The notes below the pieces were generated by a model. It worked only from the letters and a program-made list of their open reading frames with translations, was not told the origin of the DNA and did not search any database. Shown here one piece after another: positions 3,512 through 29,817 of a DNA stretch of 29,817 nt. The stretch comes from a virus. Both the position numbers and the translations under genes were made by a program. Location of the stretch: positions 1-29,817 of IMG/VR virus record IMGVR_UViG_3300025889_000646, one strand, 5' to 3'. Every line of letters begins with the position of its first letter. The first letter of the stretch is position 1.

Positions 3512-4564
3512 ATGGAACATCGACCAAGATTAACGCCTGAAGAGTTTCAGATAATTCAAACGTGGCGCGATAGGGGGCATTTACCCGAACTATTTGAGCA
3601 ATGTAAAGCCGCTGGAATAGATATTAAAGATGTTAAACACTATTGGCATAAGTCGGAGAAGTTCTCAATCTTCGCAAAGAATAAACCTCAATCTTTAGAG
3701 GATACATTCAAGCCTATATTATCCGACCTTAAAAGCTATTCGCCAAAGTTTAAGAAGATTAAGCGTGAAAAGGTTACAGACCCTCATTGTTTAATCATAG
3801 ACCCTTCAGACGTTCACGTTGGCAAGTATGCCGAAAAGCAAGAAACGGGAGAGAATTACAACATTGAAAAGGCTGTTAAGCAAGTAGACGAGGGTATTGA
3901 TGGTATATTATCAAAAGCGTTTGGGTTTAACATTGATAAGGTTATTTTCGTAATAGGTAACGATTGCTTGCATATTGACACGCCTAAACGAACCACAACA
4001 AGCGGAACACCACAAGACACTAGCGGAATGTGGCACGAAGCATTTACAGCCGCAAAAGAGATGTATATACGTGCCATTGAGCGAATACTACCTTATTCAG
4101 ATGTTGAGATAATATTTAACCCAAGCAACCACGATTATATGAGTGGCTTTATGTTAGCCCAAACTATTCAGGCTTACTTCAGGTGGTCAAAGAATGTAAA
4201 GTTTGACGTTAGTATTGCGCATCGAAAGTACACCAAGTACGGCAACAATATGATTGCTACAAGTCACGGAGATGGGGCAAAGCTACCTGACACACCTCTA
4301 CTAATGGCAACCGAAAACCCGCAAATGTGGAACGATTGCCAGTTTAGGTACATTTATCTTCACCACATACACCACAAGCAGACCCATAAATTTATGAGTG
4401 GTAAGGACTTTATAGGTGTTACAGCCGAATATCTACGCACTCCAAGCCCTTCTGATAGTTGGCATAGTCGTAACGGTTATGTAGGGGCTAAAAAGGCAAT
4501 AGAAGCGTTTATCCATAGCTTTGAAAACGGTCAGGTCGCGCGTTTAACACACCATTGCGGATGA
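3512..4564 (+). CDS. Calcineurin-like metallophosphoesterase
   Basis: A 350-aa protein with the metal-binding motifs of the calcineurin-like phosphoesterase superfamily in order: D-V-H at residues 100-102, G-N-D at 149-151, N-H-D at 206-208, S-H-G-D at 251-254 and a His-rich HHIHH at 284-288. These would coordinate a dinuclear metal site for phosphoester hydrolysis. The N-terminal 50 residues look like a small helical module (TPEEFQIIQTWRDRG). Related proteins are common in phages of Bacteroidota; the substrate is unknown, with nucleic acid processing a reasonable guess. Its stop overlaps the start of the GIY-YIG fragment by ATGA. Confidence 0.85.
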   Translation: MEHRPRLTPEEFQIIQTWRDRGHLPELFEQCKAAGIDIKDVKHYWHKSEKFSIFAKNKPQSLEDTFKPILSDLKSYSPKFKKIKREKVTDPHCLIIDPSDVHVGKYAEKQETGENYNIEKAVKQVDEGIDGILSKAFGFNIDKVIFVIGNDCLHIDTPKRTTTSGTPQDTSGMWHEAFTAAKEMYIRAIERILPYSDVEIIFNPSNHDYMSGFMLAQTIQAYFRWSKNVKFDVSIAHRKYTKYGNNMIATSHGDGAKLPDTPLLMATENPQMWNDCQFRYIYLHHIHHKQTHKFMSGKDFIGVTAEYLRTPSPSDSWHSRNGYVGAKKAIEAFIHSFENGQVARLTHHCG

Positions 4565-4761
4565 CAACAATAGGAATATATAAGGTTACATCTCCCTCAA
4601 ATAGAGTTTACATTGGTCAGAGCGTAAACATTGAACGCAGATTAAAGAGATATAAGTCTCTATCAATAAAAACCAAACAACAGACCAAGCTATGGAGGTC
4701 TTTGATAAAACACACCACGTTTAAGCACGAATCAAAAATAATTTTGTTTTTCAATCCGTAA
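4561..4761 (+). pseudogene. Truncated GIY-YIG endonuclease
   Basis: A 66-residue frame beginning at the ATG overlapping the upstream stop. It opens with a clear GIY-YIG N-terminus: TTIGIYKVTSPSNRVYIGQS, then NIERRLKRYKSL. The frame then reads LWRSLIKHTTFKHESK and stops. In intact enzymes the KYG...F-E-I-I strand and the catalytic Glu follow, so most of the nuclease domain is missing. The break coincides with the left copy of the 21-bp direct repeat at 4720-4740. The frame is best read as a remnant left when the downstream cassette was acquired. A functional mini-protein is unlikely. Confidence 0.7.
4720..4740. repeat. 21-bp direct repeat, left copy
   Basis: An exact 21-bp sequence beginning TTTAAGCACGAATC and ending AAAAATA, repeated at 5625-5645. 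It lies inside the end of the truncated GIY-YIG frame and just upstream of the PP-loop gene promoter. It bounds the PP-loop cassette with the second copy. Confidence 0.9.
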
Positions 4762-4777: not shown

Positions 4778-5629
4778 ATGAAAACAGTAACAAGCGTAAG
4801 CGGTGGCAAGACATCCGCATACATTCACGCCAATTTTGATTCAGATTTAAGCGTGTTTTCTTTGGTTAGGATTGAAGATACAGCTAACCTTTGGATGAAG
4901 GGAAAAGACGAAAAAACTAGGCAGCTTGTTTCAGATAAATTGGGAGGTGTTGAGTTTATTGGAACTGCTGAAATGGATGAAATCATTTACACCATCTTAG
5001 ACCTTGAGCAATTCACAGGAAAGAAAATTGATTGGATTACAGGAGATACATTTGAGCAAGTTATTCGCAATCATAGCAACTACCTACCTAATCAAATGGC
5101 AAGGTACTGCACGGTAGATATGAAGATAGTGCCAATCTTTGAATATTTGCAAGACAAGATAGATTTGCCTTGTATAATGAACATCGGCTATCGACCAAAC
5201 GAAACGAAACGAGCAGACAGACTGAAGGAGCGTGAAACAGATGGAATAGAACTATTTGATACTGTCATAGGTAAATCTAAGAATGGTAAAACAAATAGAT
5301 GGGGAAAGGTAGCATATCGAACCTGTCAATTCCCTTTGATTGAGAATAACATTCATAAAGATACTATTCACGAGTATTGGAAAGACAAGCCTGTAAGATT
5401 CGCCTATCGTAATAACTGCGTAGGGTGTGTGAATAGACAACCATTATTCCTGTCTCATATGGCTAATAAAGACCCAGAGACGTTTAATTGGTTTGTCAAG
5501 CAAGAAGAATTAACGGGTAACACATTTAATAGCAAAACAAGCTATGCGAAGATTCAGAATTTTGGCGTTCAACATCAGTTATTTGATGACGATTTCAATG
5601 ATTGTGATTCTGGTTTCTGTGGAATTTAA
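4778..5629 (+). CDS. PP-loop ATPase, PAPS-reductase-like
   Basis: A 283-aa protein of the adenine-nucleotide alpha-hydrolase (PAPS reductase / PP-loop) superfamily. The PP-loop is SGGKTSAY at residues 8-15, close to the N-terminus. Supporting features are Y-C-T-V-D-M-K near residue 110, GYRPNETKRADR near 147, a NNCVGCVNR Cys pair near 215 and a C-terminal Cys pair. It probably activates a substrate as an adenylate; sulfur transfer or another modification cannot be separated by sequence. Similar stand-alone proteins are frequent in phages. The gene has its own promoter, and its stop codon lies within the right copy of the 21-bp repeat, so it looks like a self-contained acquired unit. Confidence 0.82.
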   Translation: MKTVTSVSGGKTSAYIHANFDSDLSVFSLVRIEDTANLWMKGKDEKTRQLVSDKLGGVEFIGTAEMDEIIYTILDLEQFTGKKIDWITGDTFEQVIRNHSNYLPNQMARYCTVDMKIVPIFEYLQDKIDLPCIMNIGYRPNETKRADRLKERETDGIELFDTVIGKSKNGKTNRWGKVAYRTCQFPLIENNIHKDTIHEYWKDKPVRFAYRNNCVGCVNRQPLFLSHMANKDPETFNWFVKQEELTGNTFNSKTSYAKIQNFGVQHQLFDDDFNDCDSGFCGI

Positions 5630-6559: not shown

Positions 6560-6676
6560 ATGAAAGAACTATTTAAAGCACTCGCAGCATTGAAATTAAT
6601 TTCATACCTTTATGGGTATGATGAATATAAAAGAATACATAAAAAATCATTTCAATTACAACCCAGTTACTGGTAA
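6560..6676 (+). pseudogene. Possible orphaned start of the annealing-protein gene
   Basis: A 38-codon frame after a typical A-rich leader, opening MKELFKALAALK, which is how many Erf-family proteins begin. It loses that character after about 14 residues, where the HNH endonuclease frame starts. The intact Erf-like gene begins at 7039 with a similar ATGAAAG-ACTA-TT start. The simplest reading is that the HNH gene inserted at the start of the annealing-protein gene and supplied or copied a new start downstream. The alternative is a short independent gene. Confidence 0.35.
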
Positions 6677-7055
6677 GATAACAAGAGATGATAGGGCTAA
6701 TTCTAACGGAAGCCTTGACCATTATGGATACCTGATAATAAAGGTAAAAGGTAAACAGTTCAAGGCTCATAGGTTAGCTTGGTTGCTACACTACGGAGAT
6801 TTCCCTGAAAATGAAATTGACCATATAAATTGCGTAAGAAATGACAATAGAATTTGCAATTTAAGAGACGTTACTAGAGGTGATAATAATAGGTATAACA
6901 AGAAAAAAAGAAACAAAGATACTGGAGAGTTTGGTATTTACATTGACAGAACAAAAGGACTTAAAAAGAAATACGGAACAAGAGTTAATGGAAAAACATA
7001 TAGATTTTACACAATAGAAGAAGCTAAAAAGTTTAAAAATGAAAGCACTAATTGA
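6612..7055 (+). CDS. HNH homing endonuclease
   Basis: A 147-aa free-standing HNH endonuclease. The N-terminal part has the usual FNYNPVTGKITR and GYLIIKVKGKQFKAHRLAWLL. The catalytic core follows as PENEIDHINCVRNDNRICNLRDVT with the paired His and Asn residues. A basic C-terminal part carries KYGTRVNGKTYRFYTIEEA, like the DNA-contacting repeats of AP2/NUMOD-type tails. Two start clusters exist (6612 and 6621); MNIKEYIKNHF at 6621 fits the family better. It lies directly before, and overlaps by 17 nt, the Erf-like gene, a favoured insertion target for such selfish genes. Confidence 0.85.
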   Translation: MGMMNIKEYIKNHFNYNPVTGKITRDDRANSNGSLDHYGYLIIKVKGKQFKAHRLAWLLHYGDFPENEIDHINCVRNDNRICNLRDVTRGDNNRYNKKKRNKDTGEFGIYIDRTKGLKKKYGTRVNGKTYRFYTIEEAKKFKNESTN

Positions 7056-8046: not shown

Positions 8047-8389
8047 AGAATCAGAAGATACGGTTAGCGTTATTGATGCTGAAATTAAGCGACTACAAGG
8101 GCTTAAAAAGACAGAACAGAACAAGGCTAAACGACTGAAGGAAACTATTTCCAATGCTATGGAATTGTATGGCATTACAGAAATCAAAACCGAAACTTTG
8201 AAACTCAACTTTAGACGTTCTGAAGGTGTGATTTGTACAGATTCATCTGTTGGCATTCCAATGGAATTATCAACGGTTGTTCCTGAAGTAATCAAGCCAA
8301 ATTTAACAGCAATAAAAGCCGCGATTAAAGAAGGTCGGTCAGTTACCGGGTTTGAGATTGAAGAACGCTATTCATTGCAAATCAAATGA
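7895..8389 (+). CDS. Siphovirus Gp157-like protein
   Basis: A 164-aa protein with the layout of the siphovirus Gp157 family: an N-terminal helical coiled coil (about residues 1-95, with YAYVIKESEDTVSVIDAEIKRLQGLKK and LKETISNAMELYGITEIKT), then the beta segment LKLNFRRSEGVICTD, then I-P-M-E-L...VVPEVIKPNLTAIKAAIKEGRSVTGFEIEE. Gp157 was linked to phage resistance in Streptococcus; otherwise the family is poorly understood and sits in recombination/replication blocks. The next gene starts by ATGA overlap. Confidence 0.78.
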   Translation: MKKSLYNIEKEYLEIANQLEDGELSPELETALAINERELQGKAVAYAYVIKESEDTVSVIDAEIKRLQGLKKTEQNKAKRLKETISNAMELYGITEIKTETLKLNFRRSEGVICTDSSVGIPMELSTVVPEVIKPNLTAIKAAIKEGRSVTGFEIEERYSLQIK

Positions 8390-8733
8390 CCGACCCAACC
8401 AAGCAAATAGAAACGCTTAACGAGTATGTTAACAAATACTACAATTGCAACAGACAAGATGGTAACGAACTATCGTTGTACCTTCAGAAGATTACTGCAC
8501 TATTATACTACCTTGAAAGCGTTAGGAGTCAAATCCACAACAATTACGAAGTAGAAATCTTTAAATTAGTCAAAGAAGGAAACAGCGTTGCAAGGGCTGT
8601 AAACGAAGCCAATGTAAAGCACCCAATGATGTACCAACTTAGGCGTATAATGGATGGCGGCTACCGAATAGCAGACGCAATTAGAACAAACATTAGTTAT
8701 TTAAAATCAGAAAGACAAACAACAAATCAATAA
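8386..8733 (+). CDS. Hypothetical helical protein, 115 aa
   Basis: A 115-aa, all-helical protein (TLNEYVNKYY, LSLYLQKITALLYYLESVRSQIHNNY, YQLRRIMDGGYRIADAIRTNISYLKSE). Similar small helical proteins are often found beside SSB-like and Gp157-like genes in phages. No catalytic motif is visible. It starts by ATGA overlap with the Gp157-like gene and precedes the DUF3127 gene by 3 nt. Confidence 0.65.
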   Translation: MTDPTKQIETLNEYVNKYYNCNRQDGNELSLYLQKITALLYYLESVRSQIHNNYEVEIFKLVKEGNSVARAVNEANVKHPMMYQLRRIMDGGYRIADAIRTNISYLKSERQTTNQ

Positions 8734-8736
8734 ACA

Positions 8737-9078
8737 ATGACAATTACAGCACCAATTGAAGTAATCCAAGACACGCAAGAGTTTGAATCTGGATTTAGAA
8801 AACGAGTATTAGTCCTTAAAACAACAGGCGAATATCCGCAGTTACTACCTTTTGAGTTCACTAAAGAACGATGTGACGCGCTTAACGTCCTGAAGGTAGG
8901 GCAAACAGTTACCGTTCACTATGACATTAGAGGCAACGAATACAACGGTAGATACTACGTTAATCTATCAGCGTGGAAGTTTGAAGCTGAAGAAAATGGT
9001 AGCGCAGTTATTGCTAACGCTGCGAGGGCGAAGTCTGCACCTGTTCTTGACGAGCCTGAAGATGATTTACCATTTTGA
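8737..9078 (+). CDS. DUF3127 / SSB-like OB-fold protein
   Basis: A 113-aa protein with five-stranded OB-fold character (IEVIQDTQEFESGFRKRVLVLKT, LLPFEFTKERCDALNVLKVGQTVTVHYDIRGNEY, YYVNLSAWKFE). A flexible linker ends in an acidic tip, EDDLPF. That tip is the hallmark of single-strand DNA-binding proteins, used to recruit partner enzymes. The fold matches the DUF3127 group common in Bacteroidota and their phages. A role as the phage ssDNA-binding protein working with the Erf-like and RusA proteins is well supported by context. Confidence 0.8.
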   Translation: MTITAPIEVIQDTQEFESGFRKRVLVLKTTGEYPQLLPFEFTKERCDALNVLKVGQTVTVHYDIRGNEYNGRYYVNLSAWKFEAEENGSAVIANAARAKSAPVLDEPEDDLPF

Positions 9079-9866: not shown

Positions 9867-10078
9867 TGAAAGAAATGATTTGCAAGCTAATATTCTCGGA
9901 CAACATAGATTTCGAGGATTTTTACAACATCGACATCAGCAATAACCGCGTAACTCTTCAAGGTAGATTTTCGGAGGAAAAGGTTATCAAGTACGAAGAA
10001 TTAGGGTATAAGTTCAACGTAGAAGAAGATGTATTTTACAGGTCAGAAGTTGATGAAATTAGAATTGTTTTATGCTAA
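9866..10078 (+). CDS. Hypothetical protein, 70 aa
   Basis: A 70-aa acidic protein of mixed alpha/beta type (MICKLIFSDNIDFEDFYNIDISNN, VTLQGRFSEEKVIKYEELGYKFN). It begins by TAATG overlap with the HTH regulator, so the two are probably translationally coupled; an anti-repressor or partner role is possible but unproven. No known family recognised. Confidence 0.6.
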   Translation: MKEMICKLIFSDNIDFEDFYNIDISNNRVTLQGRFSEEKVIKYEELGYKFNVEEDVFYRSEVDEIRIVLC

Positions 10079-10089
10079 AAATTAAGAAG

Positions 10090-10293
10090 ATGAAAACAGA
10101 ACAGATTGAAATGATTGAATGTCCTGATTGCGAAGGCGAAACATTTGAAGAAGCGTGTATTAAAAAAATAGGACATATGCTTGATAAAGACGAAAACAAA
10201 CCTGACGGTTATAGACGATTTGGTGGTAAACTATGTGTATGGGCTTGTTGCTGCTTTGACAACGAAAAAGAGGCAAGGGAATCATTTGGCTAA
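10090..10293 (+). CDS. Small Cys-rich, possibly zinc-binding protein
   Basis: A protein of about 67 aa with CPDCEG near the N-terminus, a lone Cys nine residues later, and CVWACCCFDNE near the C-terminus. This may make a zinc site. An upstream ATG at 10072, overlapping the preceding stop, would add six basic residues; either start is possible. The stop is followed within 7 nt by the CTAACG...GTATG repeat. No family assigned. Confidence 0.58.
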   Translation: MKTEQIEMIECPDCEGETFEEACIKKIGHMLDKDENKPDGYRRFGGKLCVWACCCFDNEKEARESFG

Positions 10294-10299
10294 TGCACC

Positions 10300-10316
10300 C
10301 TAACGTTTTGGGTATG
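10300..10316. repeat. Imperfect 17-bp repeat, copy 1
   Basis: CTAACGTTTTGGGTATG just after the stop of the Cys-rich gene; 15 of 17 positions match 10581-10597. CTAAC here can also pair with GTTAG near 10316-10320 to form a weak hairpin. Confidence 0.6.
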
Positions 10317-10362
10317 GTTAGTGCCTGATTAGAATTACAAAACTTTCAAAATATAAATACAG

Positions 10363-10584
10363 ATGAAAAAAGAACAGAACTTAAAAGATAGCACAGAACA
10401 GGTATTAACTATACCTGTTGTTAGCGCAAGTACAATTATTAAAGAATTGCATGAGGCTTTGACAAATTTATTACAAGCTGCTGATGATGAAGGTTGGATA
10501 AATGACGAAACTGGTGAAGATTGGGAAGAACAAGCACAAGCAAGAAAAGCATTAGCAAATGTACCTGAAAAGTATTTGCGCTAA
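10363..10584 (+). CDS. Hypothetical phage protein, 73 aa, between repeats
   Basis: A 73-aa protein with a Ser/Thr/Val N-terminus (VLTIPVVSASTIIKELHEALTNLLQAADDEGW) and an acidic C-terminal helix (EDWEEQAQARKALANVP). Proteins of this style are widespread among phage early genes, but I cannot name a function. Its stop codon lies inside the second copy of the CTAACG...GTATG repeat, and the preceding gene carries a copy at its own 3' end, so each looks like a gene-plus-repeat unit. Confidence 0.6.
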   Translation: MKKEQNLKDSTEQVLTIPVVSASTIIKELHEALTNLLQAADDEGWINDETGEDWEEQAQARKALANVPEKYLR

Positions 10585-11776: not shown

Positions 11777-11813
11777 CTTAAAACCCTCAGTATGTCGTAT
11801 TCAGACAAATTAA
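11688..11813 (+). CDS. Possible 41-aa leader peptide over the RNA structure
   Basis: ATG in the first repeat opens a 41-codon frame that runs through the whole three-way junction and ends 22 nt inside the GIY-YIG gene. Its protein has no recognisable character. If translated, ribosomes would unfold the RNA and might couple to the downstream start; otherwise the frame is incidental. Confidence 0.25.
   Translation: MQNFSLNRYGKNDRLAEVSYRALASLPFGILKPSVCRIQTN
11777..11794. repeat. Direct repeat flanking the three-way junction, copy 2
   Basis: CTTAAAACCCTCAGTATG, the second copy of the 11672-11690 sequence. Its ATG is the start of the GIY-YIG gene. Confidence 0.6.
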
Positions 11814-12088
11814 AAAACCAGTATTCCGTTTACGTTTTAGTAAATAATCAAACGCCTATTTACGTAGGTTGTACCTCTGACATTGCAGTTAGAATAAGCA
11901 GTCATAGGCGAACAAATAAAGAGTTTACAGACTATGTTATTGTCAAGACTTACGACACTAAAAAGGATGCTTTAATAGCTGAAAACTCAATAATCAGATA
12001 CCTATCAATTTTCATAAATGATGATAATGTGAATGGTAAATTCTCTGATTTGAGTTATTTGACTATGTATAAAAAGAAAAAGCAATGA
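11792..12088 (+). CDS. GIY-YIG nuclease-domain protein
   Basis: A 98-aa protein with the GIY-YIG core at its N-terminus: QYSVYVLVNNQTPIYVGCTSDIAVRISSHR. The GIY and YIG positions read VYV and YVG; the Arg and His that follow are in place. A later ENSIIRYL helix carries the conserved Glu. There is no separate DNA-binding domain, so it is either a minimal homing-type nuclease or a phage DNA-processing nuclease. It starts in the second direct repeat after the structured leader and overlaps the next gene by ATGA. Confidence 0.72.
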   Translation: MSYSDKLKNQYSVYVLVNNQTPIYVGCTSDIAVRISSHRRTNKEFTDYVIVKTYDTKKDALIAENSIIRYLSIFINDDNVNGKFSDLSYLTMYKKKKQ

Positions 12089-12804
12089 ACGGTTGGATTA
12101 AACTACATAGGTCACTTGTTAAATGGGAGTGGTATGATGACATTAACGTAAAGGTTACGTTTCTACACTTATTACTATCCGCTAACCACGCACCTAAGAA
12201 ATGGAGGGGTATAGATATTGGTCGAGGTCAGCTATGGACATCAATTGGAAACCTTGCAAAAGAGATTGGTCTTTCAGAAAAGCAAATCAGAAACAGTTTG
12301 AAAAAACTTGAAAGAACTAATGAAATATCAATCAAAGGGGCAAGCAAAGGGACTATGATAACTGTCTGTAAATACGATAGTTACCAAGACACTAAAGAAG
12401 ATAAGGGCGAGCAAACGGGCAAACCAAAGGCAAACGAAGGGCAAGCAAAGGGCAAGCAAGGGGCGACAAACAATAATGATAATAATACTAATAATGATAA
12501 TAATGGAAATAAACAAGTAAACAAAGAACAACACTTTGAGGACTCTTCTTTGAATGATGCGTTTGAAGATTTTAAACTACACCGAAAGCAGCTAAAGAAA
12601 CCAATGACCGAAAAAGCTATTGAGTTAGCGGTTAAAAAACTGCAAAAGGTTAACGAAAAGGTTGCTATTGAAATGATTCAGCAGAGCATAGAGAACGGAT
12701 GGTCGGGTTTGTTTGAAGTGAAAGAGCAAGCAAAAAAGAAAACAACTAGCGACCATTACTACATCAACGAGAATGGTAGCAAAATATTAAAGGGCGTACT
12801 ATGA
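12085..12804 (+). CDS. Replisome-organiser-like protein (winged helix N-terminus)
   Basis: A 239-aa protein in the usual layout of phage replication initiators. The N-terminal winged helix is GWIKLHRSLVKWEWYDDINVKVTFLHLLLSAN... with LAKEIGLSEKQIRNSLKKLERTNEI. A low-complexity Asn/Asp/Gly/Lys linker covers about residues 110-150. A DnaD-like C-terminal helical part has ENGWSGLF. Such proteins recruit the phage helicase to the origin, and the primase-helicase follows directly with a 4-nt overlap. An origin is often inside this gene type; the simple repeats at 12472-12505 are noted as a candidate only. Confidence 0.78.
   Translation: MNGWIKLHRSLVKWEWYDDINVKVTFLHLLLSANHAPKKWRGIDIGRGQLWTSIGNLAKEIGLSEKQIRNSLKKLERTNEISIKGASKGTMITVCKYDSYQDTKEDKGEQTGKPKANEGQAKGKQGATNNNDNNTNNDNNGNKQVNKEQHFEDSSLNDAFEDFKLHRKQLKKPMTEKAIELAVKKLQKVNEKVAIEMIQQSIENGWSGLFEVKEQAKKKTTSDHYYINENGSKILKGVL
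12472..12505. repeat. AAT/GAT-type microsatellite in the linker
   Basis: Tandem AAT, GAT and ACT triplets coding for the Asn/Asp linker. It is AT-rich and easily unwound, and could be part of a replication origin, but coding for a flexible linker is the simpler explanation. Confidence 0.6.
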
Positions 12805-15488
12805 AACAGATTATTGATTGGAATAGCATAGAAGTTAAGGGTAACCGTTCAGGTTCTAAGCGAGCGTTATGCCCTAATTGCTCGGCTGATAGGCGCAAAT
12901 CAAAAGACCCTTGTTTGTCTGTTAACTTTGACAAAGGGTTAGCGAATTGCCATAATTGTCAAGCGGTTTCGTTTAGAGAAAATAACAGAAACGACAAGAT
13001 AGATTCTTATACACCACCTCCACAAGATTGGCAAAACTATACGCAACTATCTGACAACTTAGTTAAGTGGTGCAAACAACGAGGAATACCACAGCGAACA
13101 CTAATAGACTTCAGGATAACGGAGGAGAAGCAATGGTTGCCACAGACCAACAGAGAAGAGAATTGCATAGTATTTAACTATTTCGAGGGTGACACTTTGG
13201 TTAACAAGAAGTGTAGAGATGGTCGTAAGAACTTCACACAGTCTAAGGATGGCAAGAAGCTACTGTACAACATCAATTCAGCGATTGGAGCAAAGGAACT
13301 TTACATTGTAGAAGGTGAGTGTTTTGATAAGGATGCTGAAATACTTACGCAAAATGGATGGATGAAGTTTAGTGATTTGAATGGTACTGAAAAAGTTGGT
13401 GCTGTTTCCGATGATTCTAGTTTAAATTTTGTGAAGCCAAAAAATCTAGTTAAAAAAAGGTATGATGGAAATTTGGTAAAATATTCCAACGGTAGAGGAA
13501 ACTTTACCAGCATTACAACGCCTGAGCATAATCTTGTTTATGTAGGTAAGAATGGTTTAGAAAAAATAAAGGCAAAAGATGTAAATACTACACAAAGGAA
13601 CATACCAAGAACAACCTACTATGATGGAATCGGTGTTGACTTGTCTGATGATTTAATTCGTCTTTATGTGGCAATTTCTGCCGATTTTACAATTAGAAAA
13701 GAGGGTGACATTTATGGCTGTTTTAAGAAGAAGCGTAAGGTTGAAAGAATATCTTCAATACTTGAAAAAACTCATATAAGACATACCATTACTGAGGTTA
13801 AAAATGATATGACTTCTGTTTTTATACATAGAGGTCAAAACATTGAACCTTTTAAAATATTTCCAAGTGAATGGATTGGAAGGTTATCTGCAAGACAGAT
13901 AGAGTTAATACTTGAAGAGGTTATACTTTGGGATGGAAATTTTGTGAATAACAGAACTATGAAGGAGTATAATAGCAAGGAAAAGTCAAACATTGATTTT
14001 ATTCAAACTCTTTGTCATATGTCAGGCAGAATGTCAACCATTTGCAAGCGTAAAAATGAACGTGGTGAATGGTACAAGGCTACAATACTTCAGAAGAAAG
14101 TTTCTACAATAACTAAAAAGAACAGGTCTGAAATAGAATACAGCGATTACGTTTACTGTGTTACGGTTGATACAGGAATGATATTAGTTAGACAGAATGA
14201 TAACATAACTATATCGGGTAATTGTGATGTTCTTGCAATGTCTGCAAATGGAATTGACAATGTTGTTAGTCTATGCAATGGAGCAAACGACCACGATGAG
14301 CAATGGGTTAACTCTCAAAGATACCTTGACGATGTGGAAAGATTTATTATCGCTGTTGATAACGACCCAAAAGGTATTGAGGTACGTGAGAAGATAGCGC
14401 ATCGTTTAGGCAAGTGGAGATGCAGTTACATAGAATGGACAGACAAGGATGCAAACGGTTCTCTTCTAAGCGGTGAGATTGATAGCGATATACGTAATGC
14501 AATAAAATTTCCTGTTAGTGGTACGCATACAGTTAAAGATTTAGAGGCTGGAATATTTGACCTTTACGACAACGGATTACCGAAAACCATAAGACCAAAG
14601 CACCGCAGTTTTGATAACGTCAACACCATATTTAGCGTAATGAAAGGTCATTTAGTAACGGTAACTGGAATACCTTCACACGGAAAGTCTAACTATGTAG
14701 AATGGTATGTTTTAAACTTGCTTTACGACTATGATTTTAAAGCATCGTTCTTCAGCCCTGAACATACTCCGATGAGTTTACACCAAACTAACTTCTTGCA
14801 AAAAGCGGTAGGGCGTAACTTTTGGAAAGACGATGGAGCAACACCAAGAATAACGAAGGCAGATATTTCACGCTATACTGATTGGGCTAATGAGAAGATT
14901 TATATTACTGCGCCTGAAAAAGGTAATGTAGCTACTTGGGATTGGTTGATAGATAAATTCAAAGAACAGCTATACAGCTACGGAATTAACATATTCGTTA
15001 TTGATGCGTTCAATAAAGTTCAAATGCCCAGCGGTAACCGATTAGAAAACATCAACGATGTACTGACTAAGCTAACAGCATTCGCACAGACAAACGATTG
15101 CATTATTTTCTTAGTTGCTCATCCTACTAAGATGAAAAAAGAAGAGGATGGTACATACTTGCCTCCAACGCTATATGATGTTTCAGGTAGTGCAGACTTT
15201 AGAAATCAGACTCACGATGGATTCACGATTCACAGACACTTCGGTGAGGATGCTAGAACGGAATTTGTTAGCACTAAGGTTAAGTATCAGTTTCAGGGTG
15301 AGATAGGCAACTCTGCAAGTATGGAATATGATGTGTTAACGAGTAGATACTATGAGTTAGGGCAAACACCTCCGCGCTTTGATATGACCTTGCCAATTGA
15401 AGAGCAAGAATTGCAACCAGTTACAGCTATGAAACCAAATGAAGATTTTTACTATGATGAAATTGAGAACGAGGAAGCACCTTTTTGA
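12801..15488 (+). CDS. Primase-helicase (T7 gp4/Twinkle-like) interrupted by an in-frame intein
   Basis: An 895-aa precursor. The N-terminal zinc-binding module has C24-x2-C27 and C50-x2-C53. The TOPRIM domain starts before residue 170 with YIVEGE, where an intein (residues 174-474) is inserted. It resumes with CDVLAMS and continues to VDNDPKG near 519-525. The helicase has Walker A GIPSHGKS at 623-630, Walker B-like FVIDAF near 731 and the helicase tail motif LYDVSGSADFRNQ. After splicing the enzyme would be 594 aa, a normal size. It would prime and unwind phage DNA in the cytoplasm, loaded by the preceding organiser-like protein. Confidence 0.85.
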   Translation: MKQIIDWNSIEVKGNRSGSKRALCPNCSADRRKSKDPCLSVNFDKGLANCHNCQAVSFRENNRNDKIDSYTPPPQDWQNYTQLSDNLVKWCKQRGIPQRTLIDFRITEEKQWLPQTNREENCIVFNYFEGDTLVNKKCRDGRKNFTQSKDGKKLLYNINSAIGAKELYIVEGECFDKDAEILTQNGWMKFSDLNGTEKVGAVSDDSSLNFVKPKNLVKKRYDGNLVKYSNGRGNFTSITTPEHNLVYVGKNGLEKIKAKDVNTTQRNIPRTTYYDGIGVDLSDDLIRLYVAISADFTIRKEGDIYGCFKKKRKVERISSILEKTHIRHTITEVKNDMTSVFIHRGQNIEPFKIFPSEWIGRLSARQIELILEEVILWDGNFVNNRTMKEYNSKEKSNIDFIQTLCHMSGRMSTICKRKNERGEWYKATILQKKVSTITKKNRSEIEYSDYVYCVTVDTGMILVRQNDNITISGNCDVLAMSANGIDNVVSLCNGANDHDEQWVNSQRYLDDVERFIIAVDNDPKGIEVREKIAHRLGKWRCSYIEWTDKDANGSLLSGEIDSDIRNAIKFPVSGTHTVKDLEAGIFDLYDNGLPKTIRPKHRSFDNVNTIFSVMKGHLVTVTGIPSHGKSNYVEWYVLNLLYDYDFKASFFSPEHTPMSLHQTNFLQKAVGRNFWKDDGATPRITKADISRYTDWANEKIYITAPEKGNVATWDWLIDKFKEQLYSYGINIFVIDAFNKVQMPSGNRLENINDVLTKLTAFAQTNDCIIFLVAHPTKMKKEEDGTYLPPTLYDVSGSADFRNQTHDGFTIHRHFGEDARTEFVSTKVKYQFQGEIGNSASMEYDVLTSRYYELGQTPPRFDMTLPIEEQELQPVTAMKPNEDFYYDEIENEEAPF
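13320..14222 (+). mobile_element. Intein with degenerate LAGLIDADG endonuclease in the TOPRIM motif
   Basis: Residues 174-474 (301 aa) of the primase-helicase. Block A: CFDKDAEILTQNGWMKFSDL with Cys1. Block B: GNFTSITTPEHNL with the TxxH. Endonuclease-like blocks: LYVAISADFTI and LILEEVILWDGNF, both diverged from LAGLIDADG. Block F/G: YCVTVDTGMILV and a C-terminus ending ISGN before Cys+1. The penultimate residue is Gly instead of the usual His, a known but less common variant. The insert splits VEGE|CDVLAM, the catalytic TOPRIM motif, so function of the host enzyme depends on splicing. The DNA is visibly richer in runs of A and T than its flanks, suggesting later acquisition. Confidence 0.88.
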
Positions 15489-26136: not shown

Positions 26137-27093
26137 TTGCCAACAGCAGCCGAAATAACACGTGCGAAATTAGAAGCAATAGAGGATGTTCCATTGAATT
26201 GGGCTAAGTCTATTGATAACTATCAACCACGTTTATTCAATCGTCTATCAAGGTTGCTCAATGAACTTGAAACGGTTGATGGAGAGTTAGCTAAAACAGC
26301 CGCAAACCTCAATAGAATTGACCAAATAGTTACGGGGTTAAGAGACTTTTTAACGCAAGGTGAGTATGTTGATATTGTAACTAAATTCAATTCCGAGTTC
26401 ACCGTTCAGCAAGGGTTAACTGCTCAATACTTTTCAGACGTGCTAAAGGTTGAACCAGTAGTTACTTCTTTTAACGCTCAACTGTATCAACGTAATCGAG
26501 CCGCAGCAATAGAAGCAGTATTATCTAACGCTTCATTAGATACTATGTTACTCAATGATGTGAGGTCTACGTTAGTTGATAGTGTAGGTGCTAACGCTAG
26601 ATTTGGAGACACCTTTGATGCATTGCAAGATTTGGTAATTGGAAACGCTGAACGCGAAGGGCAACTATTACGCTATTCAAGACAGATTGTTTCAGACACA
26701 TTTGCGACTACCGATAGAGCATACACGCAACTAATCAGCGAAGAACTAGGTTATAAGTGGTTTAGGTGGTTAGGTGGCAAAATGAAAACGACCCGATGTC
26801 TATGCTTGAATCTAAACAGAAAGTATCTAAGCAAGGGAGAGGTTGAGAACATTGGTAGAGGCAATTTATCAATTATACCTAACTTAGCAAGTTGCAGAAC
26901 GAATAACGGTTGGGCTGGAATGATGAAAGGCACAAACGAAAAGACCATCTTTACCGTTGCTGGTGGTTACAACTGCCAACATTCAATACTGCCTGAAAGT
27001 ACCTTTGCAGTTCCGAAAGAGGACATTGTACGTGCAATTGCTAACGGAACATTTGAGCCAACTAGAACAGAAAAAGAGTTTTTTAATTTGTAG
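26137..27093 (+). CDS. MuF-like minor head protein
   Basis: A 318-aa protein starting with TTG one base after the previous TAA; the next in-frame ATG is far inside, so TTG is preferred. The N-terminal half is helical. The C-terminal half has the Mu gpF/SPP1 gp7 signature: YSRQIVSDTFATTDRAYTQLI, YKWFRWLGGKMKTTRCLCLNLNRKYLSK, GWAGMMKGTNEKTIFTVAGGYNCQHSILP. The conserved Cys and the final NCQH motif are present. MuF proteins act in the portal vertex region and in prohead assembly, usually encoded beside portal and capsid. Here it follows the tail genes. Confidence 0.82.
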   Translation: MPTAAEITRAKLEAIEDVPLNWAKSIDNYQPRLFNRLSRLLNELETVDGELAKTAANLNRIDQIVTGLRDFLTQGEYVDIVTKFNSEFTVQQGLTAQYFSDVLKVEPVVTSFNAQLYQRNRAAAIEAVLSNASLDTMLLNDVRSTLVDSVGANARFGDTFDALQDLVIGNAEREGQLLRYSRQIVSDTFATTDRAYTQLISEELGYKWFRWLGGKMKTTRCLCLNLNRKYLSKGEVENIGRGNLSIIPNLASCRTNNGWAGMMKGTNEKTIFTVAGGYNCQHSILPESTFAVPKEDIVRAIANGTFEPTRTEKEFFNL

Positions 27094-27111: not shown

Positions 27112-27309
27112 ATGAAGAAACTTTTACCACTACTATTGATTTTCGCTAGTTGCCAAAAAGAACCAATAGACAATTGTGCAAAGTGCTACCTTGTTAACGG
27201 TCAGCTTTGGTCTTACGTTTGCGAGGATGAACTAGACAATCAAACAATTGAAGAGTATATCGAATATTGGGACAATGCTTCTGATTTAAACTGTCAAAAG
27301 TCACAATGA
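27112..27309 (+). CDS. Small lipoprotein, 65 aa
   Basis: A 65-aa protein with a short signal peptide (MKKLLPLLLIFASC) and a lipobox FASC at residues 11-14, so Cys14 should be lipidated. The mature part is about 50 residues with four Cys (NCAKCYL, WSYVCED, LNCQK), which could form two disulfides. Small phage lipoproteins often work in superinfection exclusion or lysis; neither is proven here. A 7-bp hairpin sits directly before the start, and the next gene overlaps its end by 4 nt. Confidence 0.75.
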   Translation: MKKLLPLLLIFASCQKEPIDNCAKCYLVNGQLWSYVCEDELDNQTIEEYIEYWDNASDLNCQKSQ

Positions 27310-28163
27310 AATACAAGGTAGTACGACCTATTAGAGACAAGTTCGGAAACAAAGTTAGCGAAGGTCAAATTGTCAATAGAGACATCCTAAACGAAACCTA
27401 TCTGCAACGGTTAATATCAAACGGTAGATTGATAGAGATTGAAGAACTACCATTAGAACGTTTTGAAGGAACTGTAAAGCCTTGCATAGTTACAGGAATG
27501 TGGAAACGTCCTGAAGTGTTTAAAATCTTTGGAGAGCATTACCAATCAATAGGCATTGACGTTATTGTAGTTGGCAGCGAAGGCAAGCAATCAAAAGAAC
27601 TTGCTAAATCATTTGGGTTTATCTATTTAGAACGTCCTAATAACCCTTTAGGCAGTAAGATGAACGATACTATTACCGAAGCAATGAAACGCGATTACAC
27701 GCACGTTATATGCGTTGGTAGTGATGACTTGTTATCTGTTGAGTTAATTGATTATCAAATAGGGTTAATGCAGTCAGGATATGACTTTATCGGAATGACA
27801 GACTTCTACTTTTACGAAATCAAAAGCGGTAAGGCTAGTTATTGGGGTGGTTATAGAGAACCCGAAAGACGCAACCATACAGTTGGTGCTGGTAGATGTT
27901 TGAGCAGACGCATCATTGATAGTTGGGGTGGTGTGGTTTGGGATAACTCAATACCTAAACAATTAGATACTGTAATGCAAAATAGATTGTCTGTTTCAAA
28001 GTACCCTCAAAGAATTTTCAGTTTAAAAGAAAAAGGTATGTTTGCTGTTGACATTAAAAGCGATGTAAATATGACACCTTTTACATTATGGGATAATAGT
28101 CACTATATTGACAGTCAAATCATAACAGATAAATTCGATGTGCGGAATAGCGGCAGTAATTAA
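27306..28163 (+). CDS. Glycosyltransferase (GT-A/GT2-like) with N-terminal virion-type domain
   Basis: A 285-aa protein in two parts. Residues 1-45 (KYKVVRPIRDKFGNKVSEGQIVN...LQRLISNGRLIEI) resemble the short phage proteins beside capsid or head-completion genes. Residues 55-275 are a GT-A fold: CIVTGMWKRPEVFKIFGEHY, IDVIVVGSEGKQSKEL, YLERPNNPLGSKMNDTI, THVICVGSDDLL with S-D-D at residues 139-141 in the place of the metal-binding DxD, and a later GAGRCLSRRII acceptor loop. It would transfer a sugar, with unknown donor and acceptor. It overlaps the AsnB-like gene by 26 nt. Confidence 0.75.
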   Translation: MKYKVVRPIRDKFGNKVSEGQIVNRDILNETYLQRLISNGRLIEIEELPLERFEGTVKPCIVTGMWKRPEVFKIFGEHYQSIGIDVIVVGSEGKQSKELAKSFGFIYLERPNNPLGSKMNDTITEAMKRDYTHVICVGSDDLLSVELIDYQIGLMQSGYDFIGMTDFYFYEIKSGKASYWGGYREPERRNHTVGAGRCLSRRIIDSWGGVVWDNSIPKQLDTVMQNRLSVSKYPQRIFSLKEKGMFAVDIKSDVNMTPFTLWDNSHYIDSQIITDKFDVRNSGSN

Positions 28164-29457
28164 CGGAACAGAACAAGAAGCCCTTGCTATGGGCGAAGTG
28201 ATAAAACGAAGAGGCATTGAATCCAATGTTACAACCGTTGGAAACCTTACGGTCTACTTCACACACTTACCAATTGAAACAAGCGAATACGACCAACCAT
28301 TTACGTACAAGGGTTACACCGTTTGGTTAAACGGGTTTATTAGTAACTGGAAAGAGCTTTGCAAAGAGTATAGTTTAATAGCTTATAGCGATACGGAACT
28401 ACTTGCTTGGTGGATTGCTCACAAAAAAGATTTAAGTGCTTTAAATGGCTTCTTTGCTGTTTTGTATTACGATGGTAAAGAGGCGCATACTTTTACCGAC
28501 AGGTACGGAATTAAGCAACTTTACAAGACTAAGCATCAAAAGAAAACATACATATGTTCAGAGGTAAAAGGATTTAGAGCAATATCTCAATTGATTCCTG
28601 ATTTTGACGCTGTAAACGATTGGGAATACTCTTTAGGGGTTATGACAGACAATACTATTTGGCAAGGTATTGAACGTGTGGATTGCTTGCCTCTTATATT
28701 TCCTGAAAAGATAGACATCAGTTACGAAGATGCAAAGGTCGAATTGCTAAGACTTTGGAAACAATCTGTTGAAAGGAATTACAAAATGTTTGCTGGTTGC
28801 TACTTGTCAGGTGGTGTTGATAGTGGAATGATAGCACATTGGATGTCTCCTGATTACTCATTTAGCGTAGATTATCAAAACGAACTATCCGAAATTGAAA
28901 ACATAAAAATCAATTCTCGCGGTATTCATCATACACTAATTGCAAATTATGAGTTAGCTTTTCAATATTCTTGGAAGATTTGGGAAGTGTTAGATGACTT
29001 AAAAGTAGGGTCTTGCTATACTAACTTTGCTATTGCTGAACTAGCTTCAAAGTTTTGTAGGGTAATGTATTCGGGTGCTGGAGGTGATGAGGTCTTTAGC
29101 GGTTATATGCACAGGTATAACAAGCCTATTAACGATGTGATTAAACGTACATCAAAAGAAGGTAAGCATTACGACATTAGCCATAGAGAGTATGATTTTA
29201 GATACTTGAAAGGTATATTAGTTATTGAAGATAGAATGAGTGGTTTTCACACAATGGAGACACGCTATCCGTTCTTAGATAACGACCTTGTTAATTTTGC
29301 CTTATCTTTACCTGAAGAGTATTTAGAAAACAAACGTATTTTAAAAGACATTTCAGGACTGCCAAAGGAAATAACCGAAGGCAAGAAACGCGGGTTTTCA
29401 AATCCTCATTACACGAACGAAGAATGGGTTGAATTATGTCTGAATTTTATAACGTAG
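28138..29457 (+). CDS. AsnB-like glutamine amidotransferase / asparagine synthase
   Basis: A 439-aa class II amidotransferase. It begins MCGIAAV, with Cys2 as the catalytic nucleophile. The N-terminal domain includes LNGFISNW near 64-71 and YSDTELL near 83-89. The usual RGPD motif reads RGIE, a deviation. The synthetase half has the PP-loop LSGGVDSG at 223-230 and SGAGGDEVFSGY at 312-323, plus TRYPFLDND near 376. It hydrolyses glutamine and amidates an adenylated carboxylate. It is about 100 residues shorter than standard AsnB, like members found in surface-polysaccharide clusters. Asparagine itself or a sugar acid could be the acceptor. Confidence 0.82.
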   Translation: MCGIAAVINGTEQEALAMGEVIKRRGIESNVTTVGNLTVYFTHLPIETSEYDQPFTYKGYTVWLNGFISNWKELCKEYSLIAYSDTELLAWWIAHKKDLSALNGFFAVLYYDGKEAHTFTDRYGIKQLYKTKHQKKTYICSEVKGFRAISQLIPDFDAVNDWEYSLGVMTDNTIWQGIERVDCLPLIFPEKIDISYEDAKVELLRLWKQSVERNYKMFAGCYLSGGVDSGMIAHWMSPDYSFSVDYQNELSEIENIKINSRGIHHTLIANYELAFQYSWKIWEVLDDLKVGSCYTNFAIAELASKFCRVMYSGAGGDEVFSGYMHRYNKPINDVIKRTSKEGKHYDISHREYDFRYLKGILVIEDRMSGFHTMETRYPFLDNDLVNFALSLPEEYLENKRILKDISGLPKEITEGKKRGFSNPHYTNEEWVELCLNFIT

Positions 29458-29817
29458 ACTTCATCAATATTGATGGTAATTACATTCACAGAACTGCAAT
29501 TATTCACGACAATGTAAGGTTAGGAACTAACAACTGGATTGGTGCTTATTGCGTTATTGGTTCAAACGGTGAGATTCGCGGCAAAGACCAAAAAGCATTC
29601 AAGGGAAATGTAGTAATAGGTGACAACAACGTTATATCCGAACACGTTACAATTCAAAGACCTTATGAGTTTGTCAGCACCTACATTGGAGACAATAACA
29701 TCATAATGGCTCATTCTCATATCGGTCACGATGTCAAGATATTAAACGACTGTGAGATTTGCACAGGTGTTATCATTGGAGGCTATACGGTAATTGAAAG
29801 CGGTGTAAAGATAAAAC
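29436..29817 (+). CDS. Left-handed beta-helix acyltransferase, 3' truncated by window
   Basis: The first 127 residues of a hexapeptide-repeat protein resembling LpxA (UDP-GlcNAc acyltransferase): IHDNVRLGTNNWIGAYCVIGSNGEIRG, VVIGDNNVISEHVTIQRP, YIGDNNIIMAHSHIGHDVKILNDCEICTGVIIGG. The His in MAHSHIGHD corresponds to the catalytic His region of LpxA. The likely job is acyl or acetyl transfer to a sugar nucleotide or glycan. It starts inside the AsnB-like gene (22-nt overlap). The C-terminus lies outside the window. Confidence 0.8.
   Translation, partial: MSEFYNVDFINIDGNYIHRTAIIHDNVRLGTNNWIGAYCVIGSNGEIRGKDQKAFKGNVVIGDNNVISEHVTIQRPYEFVSTYIGDNNIIMAHSHIGHDVKILNDCEICTGVIIGGYTVIESGVKIK

Follow-up and report, generated by a model that had tools for sequence, protein, structure and literature searches.

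The question raised by this locus was what a set of glycan-type enzymes does inside the structural operon of a phage, and on which molecule it would act. The window, that is the whole stretch of DNA analysed, was 29,817 bases long and represented a complete IMG/VR virus record.

Gene content and phage context of the locus

At the right end of the window, four overlapping open reading frames on the plus strand were found where the first-pass annotation had placed them: a Cys-rich putative lipoprotein of 65 aa (27112..27309), a glycosyltransferase (GT) of 285 aa with a GT2-like GT-A fold (27306..28163), an AsnB-like glutamine-dependent amidotransferase of 439 aa (28138..29457), and a hexapeptide acyltransferase with an LpxA-like left-handed beta-helix (HEX, 29436..29817), represented by its first 127 codons and cut at the contig end. 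The overlaps were 4 bases between lipoprotein and GT, 26 between GT and AsnB, and 22 between AsnB and HEX. The gene of a minor-head-like protein (318 aa, TTG start, 26137..27093, plus strand), a context gene outside the cassette, ended at 27093, 18 bases before the lipoprotein-like ORF, and the GC content was unchanged across the cassette boundary. The Rfam search gave no match, and the promoter and terminator scans gave nothing above chance.

These genes had been read as a four-gene module, of which the GT, AsnB-like and LpxA-like members stood and the lipoprotein did not. The N-terminal MKKLLPLLLIFASC of the lipoprotein resembles a lipobox, and homologues were found in this phage family only (L004, L009, L034, L035 and L036), the gene preceding the GT in some relatives and, in L004 and L035, lying downstream of it or at another place. 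Owing to this variable position, and to its not being found in other cassette-bearing lineages, it was rejected as a cassette member. The minor-head-like protein had no Pfam match, and its role is presumed from its context and a C-terminal Cys/His motif; its homologues in 10 related contigs adjoined tail184 in some cases and lay within the head module in others.

The first-pass annotation had named host DNA across a prophage boundary as the alternative origin of the region right of 27.1 kb. This was ruled out: the region is phage and not host, because related phage contigs have the same genes between tail and head genes, with the head genes coming next. The placement in these contigs also supported the reading of the genes as a glycan module that is phage-borne and set within a structural operon. 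As had been predicted, the module runs past the window, and the relatives showed the rest of HEX, two further putative GTs, and scaffold-like and capsid-like genes. The viral contigs L002 and L003 contained the GT, an AsnB remnant, a full HEX, further genes, and a scaffold-like and a capsid-like gene, the latter two named from gene order and size. In the phage family of the window the order was terminase, tape measure, tail proteins, (lipoprotein), GT, AsnB, HEX, GT221, a 182-aa protein, GT299, scaffold and capsid, with variation. Contigs G001 and G003, of 43-44 kb, had both ends inside one gene, which suggested circularly permuted, nearly complete genomes; on this basis about one third of the genome, head genes included, is probably missing from the window.

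Several other features were recorded in the window and its relatives. A Toprim/DnaB-like primase-helicase (12801-15488) contained a probable intein at about 13.3-14.2 kb, with the borders CFDKDAEILT ... ITISGN/C (Pfam Intein_splicing, E 0.0038). Small endonuclease genes of homing type, one HNH_3 and two GIY-YIG-like, were located at 6612-7055, 11792-12088 and about 4555-4761, the third being assigned by sequence only. PAPS-reductase-like ORFs lay at 4778-5629 of the window and at 8924-9823 of L002 (SVSGGKTSAYI and SFSGGETSAYM, respectively), the latter flanked by a near-duplicate pair of HAD-like genes (8279-8800 and 9956-10483). Among G003 and G005 (L051-L055), one relative had a Mom-family DNA-modification protein (Pfam Mom, 9.5e-34) together with DNA methylases.

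Enzyme classes of the cassette

The assignment of the three proteins to the GT, AsnB-like and LpxA-like classes was well supported and is very probably correct. The AlphaFold model of the GT had a pLDDT of 92.0 and a confident GT-A fold, which was accompanied by a DxD-type metal motif (SDD, 27720-27728). The best structural match was the fucosyltransferase WrtF (Z 18.3 over 181 residues), followed by 6p61 and AvpGT; glycosyltransferases led in Foldseek, with KdsB, NeuA and RmlA lower, and the closest viral models were other uncultured Caudovirales proteins. The GT has in common with these three GT2-type GT-A enzymes the fold (Z 16-18 over about 180 residues) and the motifs N..LG.K.N and SDD, but the identity was 13-15%, no Pfam GT model matched, and the motif DxKSxxNxTPF near the C-terminus was specific to the family. 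In Pfam and NCBIfam together no curated GT family was matched, DUF2064 and TIGR04282 being sub-threshold only. The residues W66, R68, N112, K118 and G138-S139-D140 were invariant, and the motifs W-K-R-P, N..LG.K.N and SDD are characteristic of GT2-like enzymes.

An N-terminal extension of about 55 residues (27306..27473) is present in some lineages only. By profile it was found in the subclade of the window, L010, L017, L041, L044, L046 and others, and was absent from the GTs of 220-236 aa. It was compared with known virion domains and rejected as one of them, the matches to short phage proteins being weak (phrog_16445, E 0.018; DUF7210, E 0.058), and a comparison with the small head-region protein of L013 gave no match. 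GT221 and GT299 were not confirmed as GTs by profile and are GT-like by motif only.

HEX matched Pfam Hexapep at 1.1e-16, and LpxA structures were the best profile match (5e-29). The His of the HIGHD motif (His98, 29727-29729) was invariant in 24 HEX sequences. LpxA, the acyl-ACP UDP-GlcNAc O-acyltransferase, has the left-handed beta-helix and the catalytic-type His in common with HEX and provides the closest solved structures, but it is about 260 aa long, whereas full-length HEX relatives are about 170 aa (mostly 167-202 aa) and are without the C-terminal helical domain of LpxA. These relatives were 63-82% identical to the window HEX over the part present in the window. The truncated window protein scored 77.1 bits against the curated LpxA cut-off of 226 bits.

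The AsnB-like protein matched Pfam Asn_synthase (1.9e-29) and GATase_7 (6e-13), and no cassette protein reached the cut-off of a named NCBIfam family. Its best named family was the asparagine synthase TIGR01536, with 162.8 bits, below the curated cut-off of 267.1; TIGR03108 (eps_aminotran_1) gave 82.9 bits, below 816.9. The glutaminase Cys2 (MCGI; 28141-28143 in the window) was present in 41/41 complete N-termini and the oxyanion residues N65 G66 (NG) in 42/42, and the ATP-pyrophosphatase PP-loop SGG(I/V/L)DS (SGGVDS at 28807-28824) was found in all 42 cassette AsnBs with letters there. At the Glu position of the synthetase motif SGEGSDE, by alignment to ASNS, the cassette AsnBs had Ala in 40 of 43, Thr in two and Ser in one; the window reads SGAGGDE (29071-29091). 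In human ASNS the corresponding Glu-364 is conserved, and the E364A and E364Q variants are inactive (PMC6748925).

Since this Glu, essential in the human enzyme, was absent in 43/43 sequences, the cassette AsnB probably amidates a sugar carboxylate. The Glu was also missing from Agrobacterium and Lawsonia plasmid AsnBs lying amid DegT aminotransferase and acetyl/acyltransferase genes, and was kept in two unrelated phage-record AsnBs, those of Streptomyces phage TurkishDelight (TGEGSDE) and of record LT985590 (SGEGADE); the link between Glu loss and a sugar-type context is correlative and comes from few sequences, and a different residue could make up for the loss. Among known functions the nearest would be uronamide formation by WbpS and WbqG. 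These belong to the AsnB superfamily, lie in glycan clusters (P. gingivalis, P. aeruginosa, E. coli O121) and convert uronic acids to uronamides, a Bacteroidota AsnB homologue, WbpS, being among the enzymes that make one (PMC7468200). The window protein differs from them in being shorter (439 aa) and phage-borne.

Amidation appears to be optional, since AsnB was lost or degraded in several relatives: it was missing in G003 and G004, was a 76-aa remnant in G001, and was absent beside GT and HEX in L009. In L002 the 76-aa remnant (2238-2468) has MCGI followed by a stop, and part of the glutaminase is found in a different frame. WbpS is likewise optional in the comparison of P. gingivalis with T. 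forsythia.

Conservation and spread of the three-gene unit

A scan of the viral contigs with the single AsnB sequence found nothing; alignment-based scans were needed to find the loci and gave many more. Profiles were then made for GT, AsnB and HEX, and every locus was scored. The 43 contigs with a cassette AsnB were reduced to 38 by dereplication at 95% identity. In all 36 testable cassettes the GT preceded AsnB on the same strand, and in most of them the two genes overlapped; the AsnBs of the other two cassettes begin at a contig end. HEX was located within 1.5 kb of AsnB in 33/38, downstream in 30 and upstream in three. The conserved unit is thus GT, AsnB-like protein and HEX.

Further glycan-type genes accompanied the unit in part of the set. 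A second GT-like protein, c4, whose profile showed a relationship to the GT (87.5% probability), was nearby in 19 of the 38 cassettes, and a sulfotransferase-like gene was present in 4/38 (Pfam Sulfotransfer_3 in L022); such additions are typical of glycan work. In L007, L013, L019, L022, L084 and L093 the sulfotransferase-like gene directly followed the GT. Variant gene structures were also observed. In L011/L014 (9332-10702) the GT had a second GT-like domain fused to its N-terminus, giving 456 aa directly upstream of AsnB, and in L019 (11932-13371) and L022 (12059-13478) AsnB was split into a glutaminase ORF of 176 aa and a synthetase ORF of 247-249 aa, with HEX before them.

The cassettes were found near three terminase groups that were unjoined at the BLAST level used, and in other lineages they lay outside the tail/head block, next to a divergent terminase or, in L008, upstream of the terminase. 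The GT tree required nine terminase-group changes against a possible minimum of two, which indicated that the cassette has moved between phage lineages. The distance correlations were 0.55 for GT-HEX, 0.42 for GT-AsnB and 0.15 for AsnB-HEX, the last being non-significant in the Mantel test (183 of 2000 permutations equally high); this poor correlation suggested that parts of the cassette can be exchanged. Faster divergence of the cassette was considered as a sign of allele swapping and discarded, since many neighbours had similar synonymous distances. With dN/dS of 0.03-0.19 across seven pairs, GT, AsnB and HEX are under purifying selection.

About 85,000 species of bacteria and archaea were scanned with the GT alignment, by means of two degenerate peptide patterns that will miss distant GT forms, and one contig, L050, from a Peregrinibacteria MAG, was found. 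Because L050 has genes in common with the phage contigs, including one for an ERF-like protein, it is probably a virus binned into that MAG. Among the isolated phages of INPHARED no such GT was found, and the AsnBs there were only distant. The cassette was thus near-restricted to phages in the collections searched, and the GT is phage-encoded, on viral contigs with terminase and capsid-like genes.

Proposed function and competing readings

As to substrates, donor sugar, acyl group, acceptor and benefit, we infer a pathway in which the GT would transfer a sugar, with a nucleotide-sugar of the host as donor, the AsnB-like enzyme would convert a carboxylate, most likely that of a uronic-acid sugar, to the amide at the expense of glutamine and ATP, and HEX would add an acyl or acetyl group; in the phage family of the window, two further putative transferases would come next. 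The acceptor would be a protein of the virion, to which the glycan would be added in the cytoplasm as the particles assemble. A virion protein is proposed as the most likely acceptor because no membrane segments are predicted in the enzymes and their genes are flanked by those for tail and head. One candidate acceptor was the 182-aa protein encoded next to the GTs, but its model (pLDDT 32) was useless. Cytoplasmic glycosylation of a virion protein is favoured here, with moderate confidence, over modification of the host surface.

According to a passage in PMC11256854 citing Freeman 2023, mycobacteriophages encode GTs and have glycosylated virions. There, phage-encoded glycosyltransferases decorate the virion; the present GT is likewise phage-encoded, and a glycan on its virions is proposed. 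That paper notes no cassette with an amidotransferase and an LpxA-like acyltransferase, and the two systems are compared here by description.

Modification of the host surface, with the enzymes altering LPS core or another surface glycan and so blocking superinfection or the re-adsorption of progeny to debris, is the chief competing reading but rather unlikely. LpxA-like and AsnB-like enzymes are typical of LPS and O-antigen clusters, soluble GTs could act on LPS core at the inner membrane, and the GTs of pelagimyophages were interpreted in this way by their authors (PMC7029224). The Gtr serotype-conversion operons of temperate phages (GtrA/GtrB/Gtr-type) also have phage-borne glycosyltransferase genes, but no flippase or polyprenyl-phosphate membrane GT was seen in six fuller relatives of the window. 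By simple hydropathy, no flippase, GtrA/GtrB or polytopic membrane protein was seen in these six, which had only small proteins of 1-3 segments, tape measures, and one weak case of 395 aa from another lineage. A Pfam scan of 83 proteins of G003 and G005, with GT, AsnB and HEX left out, gave no nucleotide-sugar enzyme, flippase or LPS gene among the matches listed (the 25 most frequent of 32 families). Since no flippase and, among the families listed, no nucleotide-sugar enzyme was seen in these relatives, the enzymes would draw on the sugar nucleotides of the host and work in the cytoplasm. The structural-operon position would, in addition, leave scant time for surface remodelling, and the small lipoprotein that adjoins the cassette in some family members, a point in favour of the host surface, has a position unlinked to the cassette.

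Action on another phage or host molecule, such as a DNA base, the nucleotide pool, tRNA or a small molecule, is improbable. The overlap of GT-A and nucleotidyltransferase folds, as seen in the lower Foldseek ranks of KdsB, NeuA and RmlA, would allow it, but glycosyltransferases lead the structural matches, and no hydroxymethyl-pyrimidine enzyme was among the Pfam matches listed for G003/G005, though one of them has the Mom-family protein. Least credible of all is an ordinary asparagine synthase that supplies asparagine or nitrogen during infection and lies beside glycan genes by chance: TIGR01536 is indeed the best named family, and asparagine synthase is listed among the auxiliary genes of viruses in virome papers (PMC10465536, PMC10980836), but the score falls below the curated cut-off, no cassette AsnB has the glutamate that human ASNS needs for activity, and the GT neighbour is fixed in every testable cassette.

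Phage GTs, virion glycosylation, AsnB-like sugar amidotransferases and LpxA-like acyltransferases are already known. The phage-restricted three-gene cassette is new, no description of it having been found in a limited search of the open-access literature, and the likely misannotation of this kind of AsnB as asparagine synthase is also a new point. A viral 'asparagine synthase' is unsafe evidence for viral nitrogen or amino-acid metabolism, because the cassette AsnBs are without the residue that asparagine synthesis needs and are tied to glycan enzymes; Ala, Thr or Ser in place of Glu, together with a GT neighbour, offers a simple test for re-sorting such annotations. Returning to the virion protein as acceptor, we tentatively propose, as a possibility somewhat short of an even chance, a mobile pathway, essentially confined to phages, that makes an amidated, acylated and sometimes sulfated virion sugar in many unrelated tailed phages, part of the widely reported 'asparagine synthase' auxiliary genes of viruses being its sugar amidotransferase. 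If this is true, many uncultured phages would have in common an exchangeable set of genes by which their particles acquire a coat of amidated, acylated sugar, and such a coat could affect adsorption, stability or recognition.
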